Below are positions 41,642 through 47,940 of a stretch of DNA of 60,153 nt, in pieces (the stretch's first letter is position 1; each line of letters starts with the position of its first letter). Both the position numbers and the translations under genes were made by a program. The notes under the pieces were generated by a model. That model did no database searches. It was not told where the DNA came from and was given only the letters and a program-made list of their open reading frames with translations. The DNA comes from Vulcanimicrobiota bacterium (lineage in GTDB: Bacteria; Vulcanimicrobiota; JAJTBE01): positions 1-60,153 of the forward strand of contig JAIORV010000130.1 in assembly GCA_021107945.1 (NCBI GenBank), written 5' to 3'.

Positions 41642-43108
41642 TTATCCCTGCACGAATTCCTCTCCGGTCTTCAGGCACATTCCTGCCCTTTCCAGCATCC
41701 TCCCGACATAAATGGCGTGGTTTATATCTGATATGGCGCAGTTTTTGTATAGTTCATGCTGAATTTTAACCGGTTTTTTACCCTTATATTCATCAATTTG
41801 GATCCCTGAGATAAAATGCCTTACGACAATTTCCCCATTCTCTATCTTTATGGAAAAATTACCGCAGGGATCAATGTTAACCTCGAATCCCCTTTTCGAA
41901 GCTATGCTTTTTGCGATATCAATTCTGCGGGGATCTATGCTAATGGAATGAGATATTACCGTAATCGCTCCGGGTTGAATATTCACTGCATCGGAAACTG
42001 TTTTTTGGACTTTCATCAATCCGTAGAAATTCTTTAGCCAGGCGTCAATCGAGTTATGAGTGCGAAATGTGGCTGTTAGCGTGAGCTTTCCCTCAAATTT
42101 CCTGAAGTAAATCGCCACGAGGCATGGATGACCGCAGGAGCTTGAAATATCCCTGCCCGAGTCCCAGAGGCAGATATAAGACTTCCGATCCTCCGGGTCT
42201 TTTTTCAGGCTGCTGATACAATCGTCAATCGTGTTCTTCCCGAAGTATGAAGCTATTCGATTCCCATAAGTGTATGTCGTATCCGGCGGGAGATCCCTGT
42301 CCAGGAAATGATCATAATAATTCTGGAATTCATCGAAATTAAACCCGAACTCCCGGAGTTTTTCAGGGGCAATAAAGTCCGGATTTTCAACCACCACTTT
42401 GGCATTTTGAATTTCCTGACGGCCTCCCTTTTTAAGATGCACAAGGTGTCCGAACCGGTAAATCCTGAATATCAGCTCAGCCCATGCCTTAAGGGGATTA
42501 TCCGCCGTTATGTTGTGATTCCTTGGGTTTGAAGGGAATCTGTTTATATGAATTTCAGGCAGTGGGATCTTAATTCTCTTTATTTTAATATCGGGGAAAA
42601 TAGCTTCTTTTTGTATAGCTTCTTTTCGAATAGCTTCTTTTTGTATAGCTTCTTTCAGGCGATTGGTTGATTCATTGATTTTGAGCTCCCCGACACAATA
42701 TATCTCAGGCTTTTCAATAAACATGTCCGGCGTTGCCATCCCGTCGATTAGCCGGCTTGTTCCTTTTATCCCGTAATTTTTATCGCCGAGGAAGTCAACC
42801 TCCTCCAGTCCATCACGAAAGAATTTCATTAGTTCCTCTCCCGATCCCGATCTATCATTCCCACAAATAACAATTCTGCTTACCTGCGGATTGTAAAGAA
42901 GATTCCTGATCAGCTCCGGCAATCCGTTTCCGTAGAGATTCCCGATCGCCGCAACGGGAGATGTTTCCGGGGATAGATCTATCCCGATGTTTCGCATTTT
43001 ATCAACAACCCATTTAATTTCAGACCAGAGCGTTACAACGCCGATAAATCCCTGGGGATTGATTATTTTTATTTTATCAGGAAAATGTATTGGAATGAAC
43101 TTATTCAT
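41642..43108 (-). CDS. Fusion of an MtrA-like domain and a thymidylate-synthase-like domain
   Basis: 488 residues. Residues 1-150 resemble the cytoplasmic domain of methanogen MtrA (GFIGVVTLWSE, VAAIGNLYGNGLPELIRNLL, RIVICGNDRSGSGEEL). A linker at 152-170 is EAIQK/EAIRK repeats. Residues about 205-400 match thymidylate synthase: YTYGNRIASYFG, LKKDPEDRKSYICLWD, candidate nucleophile Cys329 in GHPCLVAIYF, KLTLTATFRTHNSIDAWLKN and GAITVISHSISIDPRR (where TS has DAHIY). Compared with ThyA, PPCH is HPCL and RSxD is RTHNSID, as in archaeal-type relatives. Folate- or pterin-linked methylation of a nucleotide is plausible; it is inference. The ATG overlaps the KAP gene stop by 8 nt (translational coupling). 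Confidence 0.8.
   Translation of the reverse strand: MNKFIPIHFPDKIKIINPQGFIGVVTLWSEIKWVVDKMRNIGIDLSPETSPVAAIGNLYGNGLPELIRNLLYNPQVSRIVICGNDRSGSGEELMKFFRDGLEEVDFLGDKNYGIKGTSRLIDGMATPDMFIEKPEIYCVGELKINESTNRLKEAIQKEAIRKEAIQKEAIFPDIKIKRIKIPLPEIHINRFPSNPRNHNITADNPLKAWAELIFRIYRFGHLVHLKKGGRQEIQNAKVVVENPDFIAPEKLREFGFNFDEFQNYYDHFLDRDLPPDTTYTYGNRIASYFGKNTIDDCISSLKKDPEDRKSYICLWDSGRDISSSCGHPCLVAIYFRKFEGKLTLTATFRTHNSIDAWLKNFYGLMKVQKTVSDAVNIQPGAITVISHSISIDPRRIDIAKSIASKRGFEVNIDPCGNFSIKIENGEIVVRHFISGIQIDEYKGKKPVKIQHELYKNCAISDINHAIYVGRMLERAGMCLKTGEEFVQG
42600..42659 (-). repeat. 15-bp tandem repeat inside the fusion gene
   Basis: Four units of ATAGCTTCTTTTTGT (plus strand) with small changes, encoding the linker EAIQK-EAIRK-EAIQK-EAI between the two domains. 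Confidence 0.9.
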
Positions 43109-45539
43109 CTATTTTTGTTCCTTCCATCGAGTTTTGGGGCTGGGGAACCTTTCCTGCGGGGTTTCGAGGTTGGGAAACCTCTCCTACATGGTTTCGAGGT
43201 TGGGAAACCTTTCCTGCGGGATTTCGAGGTTGGGAGACATTTCCTGCGGGATTTCGAGGTTGGGAAACCTCTCCTACATGGGTGTCTTGGGGAATCTCGT
43301 CCCGTTTTGTCTGTTCCAGGCACTTTTCTTTTTCATCTTCCTCACCCACCACGATGCCTTTCCTGACCCTCTCGTCACGGGCTCTTTCAATCTCGGCGAT
43401 CTTCCGTTTTGCCCTGTTTACTTTTACCAGGAGATCATCCAGGCTCTCCTCCCTTGGTTTCGCTTCTTTTTCCTTTTCTTCCAACGCCTTTAAGAATTCC
43501 TTTACCCCCGCTCTTTTTTTCTTATCAAGTCGGACAAAGCCTCGATATGAAGATATCCGTCTGAGCCTGTTCTCAATATCCCCTATGTCCGCAAGCTGTT
43601 TTATCCTGTGAATGTTTGTCACTAACTCCCTCTTCAGAGAAATATCATACACTCCCGATATGAATGATTTTTTCGTAATTCCGCTTATGAAGTCAATAAG
43701 CCCGGAATCGCTCTCTATCAATCTAACGATATATCCTGATATTTGCTCCGGCTTTCGCCATTTCATCCACTGAATCAGGATGTCTGCAAAGTCAATATGT
43801 CTTAAAAGCCTGCCGCTTTCAGCCCAACTCTCGATTTTTCTACATACAAGATCTATAAGTTTCTCTGCCTGTTCTTTTGTTATCAGCTTTTTCTCCCAGG
43901 GAATCGTATCTTCTTCTTCCTCATCAACAGGAATCTCCGGGTAAACCTTTTCAACCTGTTTTACCGGCGTAAAAAGGCTTTTATCAGAATACTCAATTGC
44001 CGATTTCAACACTTCATATCTTTCTTCAGGAGACTCCATTCTTGATAAAAGCTGGAATTGAATATCAATGATCTGCGACACCATGTTAATATCGCCGCTT
44101 TCTGGATTGATGAACGAATCGCCGATGTCCATGAAAGCTAAGATAACATTTCCCATATGTTTCCCCGGTACTTGCAGAGCAACGGAATCCTCCAGGAGCA
44201 GGAGAAATGAGCCCATTTTCTCCCTGTCGCCACTTTCCAATATTGCATCGGCAAACGCTTTCGGATCTCCGGTATGGGATAATATGTCTTTTATTTCACT
44301 CCGGGAGACCTTACCCTCGGGGACGGTCAACCTGAAGAAGATATCGAACATCTCGGGGCTGCAAACCCTGCCCTCCTGCCTCCAGGTTGCAAGCTCTCCT
44401 TCCTCATAGATCACATCATTGATAACAGTGTCCAGCTTGGGAAAAACTCTTCCCAGGAGACCTGTGAGAAGTTGAGCGGATATAACGGTAGAGCTATTTA
44501 AAACCTTGAGAATCTGCTCCCTGTCCCGTGGAATCGAAGGTGAATCCGCCTCGATAATCCCGGTAAAAAGCTCTTTATTGTCCCTTATGCCGGAAAACAC
44601 CCCGGACGCAAAAACCTGGAGAGATATAATCACGAGAAAATCCACGATATTTATCTCTCTTTTCACCATTTCGAAGCTGAATTTCAGAGCATTAATATAC
44701 CTCGTAACATCCCTTATGCTGTGGAAAAAGTTTTTCAAACCGCTATGATATACATCTCCCCAGTATGTATTATCAAACCTCTTCGACGGGATATTTTTCA
44801 GGAGTCCCGCTATTCGTTTGAGAAGATACTCCTCAATATCTCTTTTCGATATAAGAGGAACTTCGAAAGGGACCTGGATTATCTTCTCCAGGTATTCCAC
44901 TCCCGACACCTCCTGAACCTTATTGAGAGCACGTATAACAGCTTCCTTGTCAAATGATGCAAGGTAAATCGTACGGGGAAAATTCGCAACAACTTTCATC
45001 AACCTGAAGATTTCAAGAACTTCATTTGTGTTTAACCTGTCTATATCATCCACGAAAACAATTATCTTATGGGGCTGTTTCTCAAACCTTTCGTCCAGTT
45101 CATTCCTGATATTATGAAAGTCAATCTCACGATTATCACTTTCACCCCGGTAATGAGGTGAAAAAAAGTTTTTGTATTCAACAAGTTTTTCTTTCAATAT
45201 CTCTATATCGTCTGCTTTAATTTTGCCGACGGTAGAGAAAAGATGGTTGAAAAACTGTGGGATCATCTGGTTCTGCGCCGAGAAATTCCAGGGATTGAAC
45301 CGGATTATCAGGGGAGTATTTTCTATCTGGGGCGATCCGGTATTCTTTATATATTCCAGGATCATATTTATAATAGATGTCTTGCCTGATCCCCATGTAC
45401 CAAAAAGCCCCACAGCGAGACTGTCGGTATCCTCGTATGATAACATCGCCTGTCCCAGGGATCGTGCGAAGGGAGCGCGTCTGAGGAAATCATCTTTTCT
45501 TGATTTAATAGGCTTGTCAGGTAAAAACATCTGATACAA
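43101..45539 (-). CDS. KAP-family P-loop NTPase with repeat-derived C-terminal tail
   Basis: 812 residues. Walker A is GLFGTWGSGKTSIINMIL near residue 45 and Walker B is IIVFVDDIDRLNTNEVLEIF near residue 160, the KAP signature (STAND-related, in animal Kidins220, bacterial plasmid and phage-exclusion proteins). The usual intramembrane insertion is not evident. A coiled-coil, highly charged region occupies about 690-760, and the last 55 residues are a 10-residue repeat, VSQPRNPAGK, five copies. That tail is encoded by a 30-bp tandem repeat related to the window's dispersed hairpin element. It lies in an operon with AcpS upstream (14-nt gap) and the MtrA/ThyA-like gene downstream (8-nt overlap). 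Its function is unknown; KAP proteins often organise complexes or act in defence. Confidence 0.85.
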   Translation of the reverse strand: MYQMFLPDKPIKSRKDDFLRRAPFARSLGQAMLSYEDTDSLAVGLFGTWGSGKTSIINMILEYIKNTGSPQIENTPLIIRFNPWNFSAQNQMIPQFFNHLFSTVGKIKADDIEILKEKLVEYKNFFSPHYRGESDNREIDFHNIRNELDERFEKQPHKIIVFVDDIDRLNTNEVLEIFRLMKVVANFPRTIYLASFDKEAVIRALNKVQEVSGVEYLEKIIQVPFEVPLISKRDIEEYLLKRIAGLLKNIPSKRFDNTYWGDVYHSGLKNFFHSIRDVTRYINALKFSFEMVKREINIVDFLVIISLQVFASGVFSGIRDNKELFTGIIEADSPSIPRDREQILKVLNSSTVISAQLLTGLLGRVFPKLDTVINDVIYEEGELATWRQEGRVCSPEMFDIFFRLTVPEGKVSRSEIKDILSHTGDPKAFADAILESGDREKMGSFLLLLEDSVALQVPGKHMGNVILAFMDIGDSFINPESGDINMVSQIIDIQFQLLSRMESPEERYEVLKSAIEYSDKSLFTPVKQVEKVYPEIPVDEEEEDTIPWEKKLITKEQAEKLIDLVCRKIESWAESGRLLRHIDFADILIQWMKWRKPEQISGYIVRLIESDSGLIDFISGITKKSFISGVYDISLKRELVTNIHRIKQLADIGDIENRLRRISSYRGFVRLDKKKRAGVKEFLKALEEKEKEAKPREESLDDLLVKVNRAKRKIAEIERARDERVRKGIVVGEEDEKEKCLEQTKRDEIPQDTHVGEVSQPRNPAGNVSQPRNPAGKVSQPRNHVGEVSQPRNPAGKVPQPQNSMEGTKIDE
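43135..43290 (+). repeat. 30-bp tandem repeat coding the KAP tail, related to the dispersed hairpin element
   Basis: Period of exactly 30 bp; TCGAGGTTGGGAAACCTCTC followed by CTACATGGTT at 43164, 43194, 43224 and 43254, with a decayed unit to the left. Stem GAGGTT / AACCTC with a GGGA loop. The intergenic copy at 23103 reads ATCGAGATTGGGAAATCCCT then CCTACAGATC. Confidence 0.85.
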
Positions 45540-45553
45540 TCCCCTGGTTTTTA

Positions 45554-45937
45554 TTATAGTTTTTTGTGAGCAATTGCAAATGCCACGGCAAAATCGTGAG
45601 AATGGCTGATTGTCAGTGATATATTCAAAATTCCCATAGACCGGACTATTCTTTCGGACTCTTTCTTTAGTCTGACTTCAGGATTACCGCTTTTCCCCCT
45701 GAGTATTTCAATAGATTTCAACGGAGGTGAAGGTCTTACTTTTATTGATTTAATAACAGCTTCCTTGGCAGCAAATCTTCCTGCCAGGTGGGCCGGTGTT
45801 CCTGCCTTACCAAGGCAATACTCTATTTCCGCCGCTGTAAAAACCCTATGAAGGAATTTATCTCCCCACTTTTCATATAACTTCCGGATACGGGAGATTT
45901 CCACGATATCAACTCCGGGGATGCAGATAATATTCAA
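45554..45937 (-). CDS. acpS: Holo-[acyl-carrier-protein] synthase
   Basis: Transfers 4'-phosphopantetheine from CoA to ACP. The 127-residue length fits AcpS; Mg-binding motif PGVDIVEISRI (Asp) and RFAAKEAVIKSI (Glu, Lys) are both present. I start at the TTG at 45937, 5 nt after GAGG, since the family begins just before the GVDIVEI strand; an ATG at 45973 would overlap the upstream gene. It lies second in the minus-strand operon of the GGDEF-like sensor, AcpS, KAP NTPase and MtrA/ThyA-like fusion. Confidence 0.93.
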   Translation of the reverse strand: MNIICIPGVDIVEISRIRKLYEKWGDKFLHRVFTAAEIEYCLGKAGTPAHLAGRFAAKEAVIKSIKVRPSPPLKSIEILRGKSGNPEVRLKKESERIVRSMGILNISLTISHSHDFAVAFAIAHKKL

Positions 45938-45957
45938 TAGACCCTCGTTTTCCTGCC

Positions 45958-47940
45958 CTATGTCAGGAAGCATGTTTGTGAGCCACCTTTCCCCTTGGCA
46001 TCTTCAAGACTTTTTAATGTTAGATTATAGAGTTCCTCGGAGCTTTCAGCATCTTCGGAGATATTTGCCAATCCAAGGCAAAGATGAAGCTTGGAAGCCC
46101 TCGCCTGCGGAGAGCCGAAAGAGCGCATTTCCGCTCCCATGCGAATCCTCTCGGCAATATGAATGGTATCTATTTTTGAGGAATGGATAAAGAGAATAGC
46201 AAATTGATTTTCCGTCAATCTCGCTGCGAGATCCGTTTCCCGCACATGAGATTGCAGGATTCCTGTGAGGTCCTGAACCAATCGATCCTGAACCAGTTGC
46301 CCCGCTCGTTCAGCAAATTGCTCATAATTGATAATTTCCATCATTACAAATGTCAGGGGTATTTCATATCTCAAAGCCCTTGCGACTTCTTCCCTGAATC
46401 GCTCATTGAAGTAAATATCATTATACAGTCCCGTTGTCTCATCAATCAGCGAGACCTGCATCGTTTTCTCCAATTGAACGGCCAGATGTATCAATGAGCC
46501 TGCAAGTTTGCAGAATGACTTCATTAAATAGACGTCTTTGTCAGAAAAGCCCGCTTCTTCTGGTTTGCCCAAATACATTGCGCCTGTTACTTCCCCGGCA
46601 TATTGAACAGGTACAATTAACGCGCTTTTCTCATACCTGATGAGAGTTGAAAGCTCGTTTCCGTTTTTCAATTTAATTGAGCTTCGGTTAATTTTCAGCG
46701 CTTTGGAATTTCGAACCGCCCATCCCACGGCTCCTTCCCCCACACTCACGGAATAGTCGATGAATAAATTCTTATAAGGTGTAGCGGCAACATCGGCAAA
46801 AAGGTGTTTTCCCATATCGGTATCTTCCACTACAAATAAAATTGCGGTTTGTGAAGGAACCAATTTGAGAGCTTCGTTAATAATGGCCAGGTAAGTGGAT
46901 TCAATATCCACAGCCTGAGATATCCTGGTATATGATTCAAAGAGGTTCTCCCTGGACTGCAGGGCAACATTCAATTCCGATATTTTGCCCACAAGAAGGG
47001 ATATTTTTCCTTCAAGATCTTTTATTATATCGCGATATTCAACTTCAGTCACTCCCAAATTCGACTCCAGTTCTTTAATCATCGCTTGATACTTGTTAAC
47101 TCCATCCTTATACTCAGTTTCAAGACGCTTTTTAAAGACCTCCGTTTCCCCTTCTTTTCGCTTTAAAAGCTTATTTTGCTTGGTCAGAATTTTCTTTTGT
47201 TGCTCAAGAGCATCTCTCTCGCTCTGTGTGACACTCTCTTCCATATGCTCAAGTTCCATGGACATCACATCTACTTTTTGGCGGGCTTCAATCAAATTCT
47301 CTTCTTTTTTCTGAAATCTTGATTCCAACTCGTCTATGAACACCTGTTTCTTTTCCAATTCATTAAAAACGACGCCAAATTCTTTCTTTGTCGCCTGATG
47401 ACTTTCAAACAGCATCCTTTTCTCTTCCTGGAATTTCCTGACAATATCTGACACTTCCTCTTCATGCCTTAACGACCAAATAAAATTGATATATATAGCC
47501 GCTGCGGAGAAAACAAATGCCCAGACAAGGTCGAAAAGCTGTTTCATCAGAATATCTTTGAAAGCTGAGTTCTGCAAATGCTTTATAATCAACATAATGA
47601 CAAGAGGACCAAAGAATGAAATTGATATAATTAAAACTACAATAGAAATAAAAGTGCCGAAATAGAATGCGGTTTCCAGCACGGGCAAAAGCACTGTCAG
47701 GTAAAAGTAAGGGACTCCGAAAAACCATGCCATAAATCCACCGGCACAAAGATCCATGAAAATAAGAAGCCCGATATTAAATTTGCTGTCATCGAACTTG
47801 AAAATTACAAGAGATGCTACAATATGGTAAATAAAAAGAAGAAGGATTAAAAGCACAGGCATATCCGCAAAAAACGACGGTAATGCATGAGGGAGCGCTT
47901 GTGCGGTTGCACCGACTTTTTGACCGCCAAAATTACTCAT
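45958..47940 (-). CDS. Membrane sensor: TM region, coiled coil, GAF and degenerate GGDEF domain
   Basis: 660 residues. Four to five transmembrane helices within 1-165, a long coiled coil at about 165-325, a GAF domain at about 335-485 (VPSQTAILFVVEDTDMGKHL, SVGEGAVGWAVRNSKALKIN), and a C-terminal diguanylate-cyclase-type domain beginning LIDETTGLYNDIYFNERF. The GGDEF signature is replaced by TENQF, and the substrate Asp/Asn pattern is weak, so it should not make c-di-GMP; it may bind nucleotide or act as a dimer module. The C-terminal KGGSQTCF replaces the usual K-x-x-GRN. First gene of a four-gene operon. Confidence 0.88.
   Translation of the reverse strand: MSNFGGQKVGATAQALPHALPSFFADMPVLLILLLFIYHIVASLVIFKFDDSKFNIGLLIFMDLCAGGFMAWFFGVPYFYLTVLLPVLETAFYFGTFISIVVLIISISFFGPLVIMLIIKHLQNSAFKDILMKQLFDLVWAFVFSAAAIYINFIWSLRHEEEVSDIVRKFQEEKRMLFESHQATKKEFGVVFNELEKKQVFIDELESRFQKKEENLIEARQKVDVMSMELEHMEESVTQSERDALEQQKKILTKQNKLLKRKEGETEVFKKRLETEYKDGVNKYQAMIKELESNLGVTEVEYRDIIKDLEGKISLLVGKISELNVALQSRENLFESYTRISQAVDIESTYLAIINEALKLVPSQTAILFVVEDTDMGKHLFADVAATPYKNLFIDYSVSVGEGAVGWAVRNSKALKINRSSIKLKNGNELSTLIRYEKSALIVPVQYAGEVTGAMYLGKPEEAGFSDKDVYLMKSFCKLAGSLIHLAVQLEKTMQVSLIDETTGLYNDIYFNERFREEVARALRYEIPLTFVMMEIINYEQFAERAGQLVQDRLVQDLTGILQSHVRETDLAARLTENQFAILFIHSSKIDTIHIAERIRMGAEMRSFGSPQARASKLHLCLGLANISEDAESSEELYNLTLKSLEDAKGKGGSQTCFLT

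Follow-up and report, generated by a model that had tools for sequence, protein, structure and literature searches.

What is the function of a 488-residue protein in which an MtrA-like domain, a thymidylate synthase (TS) domain and a PterinBD-DUF4346 domain are joined end to end? The protein is encoded on a 60,153-nucleotide contig of a Vulcanimicrobiota bacterium (JAIORV010000130.1, assembly GCA_021107945.1), the whole of which is called the window below; the genome to which the window belongs (G000) is 98.6% complete. On balance, comparison of sequences makes it probable that the fusion is a TS-family enzyme with a pterin-binding domain of its own, which would act together with a ParB-CE protein in the supply of deoxythymidine monophosphate (dTMP) in organisms that lack the dihydrofolate reductase (DHFR) FolA. 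The observations behind this proposal are the domains, the conserved residues, the absence of recognisable alternatives from the genome, the co-occurrence of ParB-CE, and the linkage to genes that produce deoxyuridine monophosphate (dUMP) or otherwise serve deoxynucleoside triphosphate (dNTP) synthesis; catalysis, the substrate, the one-carbon carrier and the role of ParB-CE are deduced from them. The gene and its parts are located as follows.

41642..43108, minus strand: MtrA-like / thymidylate synthase / PterinBD-DUF4346 fusion protein, 488 amino acids (open reading frame and profile matches)
42614..43108, minus strand: N-terminal MtrA-like Rossmann-type domain and linker, residues 1-165 (weak single-sequence matches; profile against 5laa)
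42600..42655, minus strand: 15-bp tandem repeat encoding the KEAIQ/RKEAIQ linker from the MtrA-like to the TS domain
41936..42490, minus strand: TS domain, residues 207-391 (TIGR03283 and alignments)
41648..41872, minus strand: C-terminal PterinBD-DUF4346 domain, residues 413-487 (PF14251)

An earlier note on this DNA, made from the sequence alone, had described the protein as a fusion of MtrA with a ThyA-like domain and named the profiles that should recognise it. Those for the TS and DUF4346 domains do: the methanogen-type TS family TIGR03283 matches residues 207-391 (E 1.2e-30, 106.6 bits, short of the equivalog cut-off of 174.55 bits), and the gathering cut-offs are passed by both PF00303 (E 7e-6, 25.8 bits against 24.3) and PF14251 (E 2.8e-17, 63.7 bits against 29.6), while ThyX (PF02511) is not among the Pfam matches of the protein. 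All 12 fusion members scanned match TIGR03283 (best E 5e-37) and PF00303 (at E <= 0.01). The MtrA profile PF04208 has no match in the window protein and matches four of the 12 members (best E 0.0026); a second MtrA family, NF002126, matches the window protein weakly when it is searched alone (E 0.001) and 10 of the 12 members (best E 8.8e-6), and a profile of nine fusion members finds 5laa among the solved MtrA structures (E 1.1e-5). As judged from these searches, the homology of the N-terminus to MtrA is distant and profile-based only.

The fusion is not a chance reading, because homologues with 28-47% identity to it (L137 not included) retain the domains. A scan of genome contigs found a full-length relative (L043, 45-48% identity) in a metagenome-assembled genome titled 'Nitrospirae bacterium', and the full fusion is present in eight of the 396 genomes of that Nitrospirae-related phylum. 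Alignment scans of IMG/VR added seven fusion loci on seven viral contigs (L117, L118, L119, L122/L127, L124, L125 and L137), where a scan with the single protein had given nothing. Of the 148 genomes from the phylum to which the window belongs, G000 is the only one with the fusion. A set of 50,697 described phage records yielded no full-length fusion, only stand-alone TS proteins covering at most about half of the query, and plasmids yielded one weak TS-only match. Contamination was considered as an origin of the window contig and is thought unlikely; its tetranucleotide bias matches that of contig C3, which carries the ParB-CE gene of G000 (r 0.96).

Sixteen members were aligned, a clade of 13 that includes the window protein and the divergent viral-contig members L124, L125 and L137, and residue equivalences were taken from an alignment with a canonical ThyA (L003) that we take to share the numbering of E. 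coli ThyA. C329 of the window protein corresponds to Cys146, R308 to Arg126, R349 to Arg166, N360 to Asn177 (the uracil-type residue) and Y281 to Tyr94. The putative nucleophile Cys329, already picked out in the earlier note, sits in a PC motif (P328-C329) and is invariant in the 16 members, as are R349, N360, Y281, G282 and R284 in the TS domain and D413, G416, Y441 and H464 in the DUF4346 domain; the Arg126 equivalent is kept in 13 of the 16 and is C or A in L124, L125 and L137. The alteration of the active site that the same note had perceived is also real, with N352 at the position of Asp169, S390 at that of His207 and D392 at that of Tyr209. In ThyA, Asp169 contacts folate, and position 177 is the switch between uracil (Asn) and cytosine. 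Throughout the clade of 13, Asp169 is replaced by N (once by R), His207 by S or G, and Tyr209 by N, D or S; D, H and Y are retained only in the three divergent members, which have no ParB-CE gene nearby, and this distribution suggests that ParB-CE and the altered pocket may have evolved together. An Asn at the Asp169 position, like that of the fusion clade, was also seen in a stand-alone, unannotated TS-like protein of Nonomuraea gerenzanensis (L087, NZ_LT559118.1).

Apart from the fusion, profile searches of G000 recovered nothing that matches PF00303, and neither ThyX nor DHFR. DHFR (PF00186) was not found in any of the nine fusion genomes; in the window's phylum it is present in seven of eight genomes with a canonical ThyA versus none of 15 with ThyX, the split to be expected from the described coupling of ThyA to FolA (PMC9931769). 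Four of the Nitrospirae-related genomes (G149, G211, G387 and G487) encode the fusion and lack ThyX, any other ThyA and thymidine kinase. Several observations weigh against the fusion as the source of dTMP. Salvage is possible in G000, which encodes a thymidine kinase; three other Nitrospirae-related genomes (G531, G299 and G303) encode ThyX alongside the fusion; and G232, of the same group, whose fusion locus is part of a 3.27-Mb contig, encodes an additional TS-like protein of 214 amino acids (L080 1456-2100, PF00303 E 1.7e-8). The replacement of Asp169, His207 and Tyr209 in the clade associated with ParB-CE could indicate that the substrate or the product is a different one. Moreover, none of four Nitrospirae-related control genomes has DHFR, so its absence from the fusion genomes of that group is not independent evidence. 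A role of the fusion in dTMP supply is nevertheless likely, if not certain, and ordinary supply is favoured over the modified-nucleotide synthesis that the earlier note had offered as an example, because the fusion is the sole TS-family gene of G000 and its viral homologues stand in clusters of dNTP synthesis genes. As separate observations, the smaller TS-like protein of G232 keeps an H-x-H motif near the 3′-OH site, and two genomes of the window's phylum (G003, 90% complete, and G012, 100% complete) have no ThyA, ThyX or fusion, which may reflect assembly gaps or another TS.

The gene that most consistently accompanies the fusion encodes ParB-CE (PF24392). It is present in all nine fusion genomes versus none of the 41 others among the 50 searched (Fisher p 4e-10), a sample of non-independent genomes that amounts in effect to two bacterial lineages plus viruses; 17 of the 41 genomes without ParB-CE carry an MtrA-DUF4346 protein that has no TS domain. 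In all eight Nitrospirae-related genomes the ParB-CE gene (about 203 codons) is immediately upstream of the fusion gene, and it lies beside the fusion in two viral contigs (L117 and L127); in G000 it is not beside the fusion and lies on contig C3. Across 11 pairs, the pairwise divergence of the fusions correlates with that of their ParB-CE proteins (r 0.92, Mantel p 1e-4). The DGMHR motif of ParB-CE is invariant, and a predicted model, with a mean predicted local distance difference test (pLDDT) score of 78, weakly matches the sulfiredoxin/SbnI/ParB fold (best E 4e-3, sulfiredoxin probability 0.99). ParB-CE is probably a real partner of the fusion. The ParB-CE genes of two further viral contigs (L128 and L129) have no fusion gene within 10 kb of them, and L128 also encodes a deoxycytidine monophosphate (dCMP) deaminase.

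Other neighbours of the fusion belong to dNTP synthesis. Five Nitrospirae-related genomes have the gene order dcd (deoxycytidine triphosphate, dCTP, deaminase), HAD, ParB-CE, fusion, where the dcd and HAD genes were assigned by a Pfam run on L043 and by near-identical sequence in the remaining genomes. The 287-kb viral contig L117 has HAD, ParB-CE, dCMP deaminase and fusion genes in a row, so that two different deaminases that generate dUMP are linked to the fusion. On L118, an 81-kb contig with a terminase, the fusion is followed by a class II (B12-dependent) ribonucleotide reductase (RNR), a call made from a weak Pfam match to the insertion domain, and by a cobalamin adenosyltransferase; on L137, a 90-kb viral contig, it follows nrdA and nrdB, with a thymidylate kinase gene further on. 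A thymidylate synthase is to be expected in neighbourhoods of this kind. The HAD proteins upstream of ParB-CE in the five Nitrospirae-related loci and L117 have a motif I of the form FDIGSTL or FDIGQTL, which lacks the second Asp that is usual in the phosphatase motif.

The N-terminal domain is less easily placed. In MtrA, His84 is the lower cobalamin ligand (PMC4915002). Gly or Ser occupies the aligned position in almost every fusion member, the window protein included; L117 is the sole fusion with a His, in the column adjoining that of His84, and the GAIPF-x-EN meander was not recognisable in the alignment of the fusions. The MtrA-like character of the domain has held up, if weakly, while the earlier label of methanogenesis-type MtrA was misleading, the cobalamin-ligating His being missing. 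Because the fusions carry Gly or Ser where MtrA has His84, a corrinoid role for this domain is not supported by the aligned residues. Proteins of about 390 residues that resemble NF002128 and join MtrA to DUF4346 with no TS domain between them are found in about 25 of the 396 genomes of the phylum of the Nitrospirae relatives; they keep His84 (GKDTEGH) and the E-N-I-G motif. These proteins (L052-L073) also have two Cys clusters, CRKCGCM and CFGCKYCIPPEA, and they are possibly soluble corrinoid/Fe-S methyl carriers, to go by these motifs.

As to mechanism, the fusion would make dTMP from dUMP in a cell that has neither ThyX nor canonical ThyA nor a FolA-type DHFR. Cys329 would add to C6 of a dUMP molecule held by Arg308 and Arg349, its uracil selected by Asn360, and the PterinBD-DUF4346 domain would bind a one-carbon pterin, either folate or a relative of it, from which the one-carbon unit passes to C5. 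Because FolA is absent, the reduction would have to proceed without the ThyA-type oxidation of the carrier to dihydrofolate, or else some unrecognised enzyme would recycle the carrier. ParB-CE, with its ParB/sulfiredoxin-like fold and DGMHR motif, would act with the fusion, probably as a nucleotide-dependent accessory, and the MtrA-like domain, having lost the cobalamin ligand, would probably be structural or bind something else.

To our knowledge, the established thymidylate synthases are only two, ThyA and ThyX, which are unrelated; the former is coupled to dihydrofolate reductase. The fusion resembles the archaeal ThyA of TIGR03283 in its TS domain, a short core that lacks the R21 segment found at the N-terminus of ThyA, but scores below the equivalog cut-off of that family and differs in its added MtrA-like and pterin-binding domains, its ParB-CE partner and its occurrence in bacteria and on viral contigs. 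It shares with canonical ThyA (PF00303) the equivalents of Cys146, Arg166, Asn177, Tyr94 and, in 13 of 16 members, Arg126, but has substitutions at Asp169, His207 and Tyr209 in the forms associated with ParB-CE and occurs in genomes where FolA was not found. Like ThyX, it occurs in organisms without FolA, but no sequence or domain similarity between the two was found and three genomes have both. It has the TS fold and Cys of MilA and the phage dCMP hydroxylases/hydroxymethylases, which are among its structural matches, but the uracil-type Asn at position 177, the extra domains and the linkage to ParB-CE set it apart. Its MtrA-like and C-terminal DUF4346 domains recur in the MtrA-DUF4346 proteins that have no TS domain, but those retain His84, E-N-I-G and the Cys clusters, and ParB-CE is absent from the 17 genomes tested that encode them. 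The open-access literature searched (most subscription papers and all preprints being outside it) yielded no account of the fusion or of its pairing with ParB-CE, no paper on DUF4346 and none on MtrA together with TS. It may be suggested tentatively that the fusion represents a further TS system, undescribed as far as the open-access literature searched and the profile libraries extend, in which a TS-fold enzyme contains a pterin-binding domain of its own, forms dTMP with no need of FolA and depends on ParB-CE, and which has been exchanged between separate bacterial phyla and large viruses. If so, organisms that lack FolA, ThyX and, in four cases, thymidine kinase would carry out an indispensable step of DNA synthesis in a further way, one with a reductant and a partner protein of its own; the system would give a function to PterinBD-DUF4346 and ParB-CE, domains known mainly as profiles, and explain how thymine is produced in some bacteria and viruses.

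Other readings of the same protein are less probable. It might be a hydroxymethylase or hypermodification enzyme that converts dUMP or a related nucleotide to 5-hydroxymethyl-dUMP without oxidation of the pterin, after which ParB-CE and the HAD protein would act on the hydroxymethyl group, either to yield a modified nucleotide or to reduce it in a further step, giving dTMP. Consistent with this are the lack of DHFR in every fusion genome, the alteration of the folate-contacting Asp and of the His and Tyr at the 3′-OH in the clade associated with ParB-CE but not in L124, L125 and L137, which have no ParB-CE gene close by, the HAD and ParB-CE neighbours, and the three genomes that have ThyX as well. 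An AlphaFold2 model computed from nine sequences bears on both proposals: Foldseek places its TS domain with TS-fold enzymes, in line with the leading one, and the best match is a dCMP hydroxylase (9iqc, 9iqu) with MilA also among the matches, in line with this one; these matches depend, however, on a model with a mean pLDDT of 67, in which residues 315-330 around the nucleophile score below 50. At least four fusion genomes have no other recognisable source of dTMP and no thymidine kinase, and no glycosyltransferase or hypermodification gene was recognised beside the fusion in the lists of open reading frames, from which not every neighbour was profiled; overall, we regard a hydroxymethylase as unlikely. 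It is improbable that the MtrA-like domain carries a methyl-cobamide from which the Cys-activated C5 takes a group already at the methyl oxidation level, with no need of a reductant or DHFR. This would suit the MtrA homology, the lack of DHFR and the His84 of the proteins without a TS domain in the same phylum, and the B12-dependent RNR and cobalamin adenosyltransferase beside the fusion of L118 could be cited for it, though the RNR alone would explain them; against it, His84 is gone from the fusions and the meander is unrecognisable. That the fusion is degenerate or regulatory rather than catalytic, with dTMP coming from salvage or an unrecognised enzyme, is quite improbable too. Several ThyA ligand residues are indeed lost, G000 has thymidine kinase, and G003 and G012, with neither ThyA nor ThyX nor the fusion, indicate that unrecognised routes may exist, but the equivalents of Cys146, Arg166, Asn177 and Tyr94 are invariant in 16 divergent members, the fusion is retained on viral contigs with dNTP genes, and the salvage enzyme is absent from eight relatives.

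The remaining explanation concerns the genes upstream of the fusion, which are arranged as follows.

43101..45539, minus strand: KAP P-loop NTPase, PifA-like, 812 amino acids (PF07693 E 2e-44; PADLOC PifA E 1.7e-79)
45554..45973, minus strand: AcpS holo-ACP synthase, upstream on the same strand (PF01648 E 7.5e-16; TIGR00516 above cut-off)
45958..47940, minus strand: GAF-GGDEF protein with a degenerate GGDEF motif (ENQF), at the head of the gene run (open reading frame and profiles)

The earlier note had described the 812- and 488-residue reading frames and their overlap correctly, the KAP and fusion genes sharing 8 nucleotides (ATGAATAA), and had rightly put AcpS and the degenerate GGDEF gene, which precede KAP, in the same run. 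Its suggestion that KAP and the fusion form a common complex, for defence or nucleotide chemistry, is favoured by that overlap, by the match of KAP to PifA in PADLOC, and by one plasmid relative of KAP whose gene has an anti-phage dCTP deaminase gene in its vicinity. It is very improbable: the survey of such pairs that the note proposed found no KAP gene next to any of the 15 other fusion loci, PADLOC returned no match for the fusion, the three plasmid relatives of KAP that were examined have no TS neighbour, and the fusion is the only TS of G000. KAP as a functional partner was accordingly dropped as the leading explanation in favour of TS activity with ParB-CE, and KAP is probably a local neighbour only; the fusion locus resembles those of QatA/PifA-type KAP NTPases in having a KAP gene as neighbour but differs in that KAP is not conserved with the fusion. 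A pair of defence-like genes of another kind, an AAA_21 ATPase and a DUF4276 protein, directly follows the fusion in the Nitrospirae-related locus L043 (6418-8273), with similar genes in L104. The KAP protein of the window itself ends in a PRNPAG-type tail encoded by 4.5 copies of a 30-bp tandem repeat (window 43141-43275).

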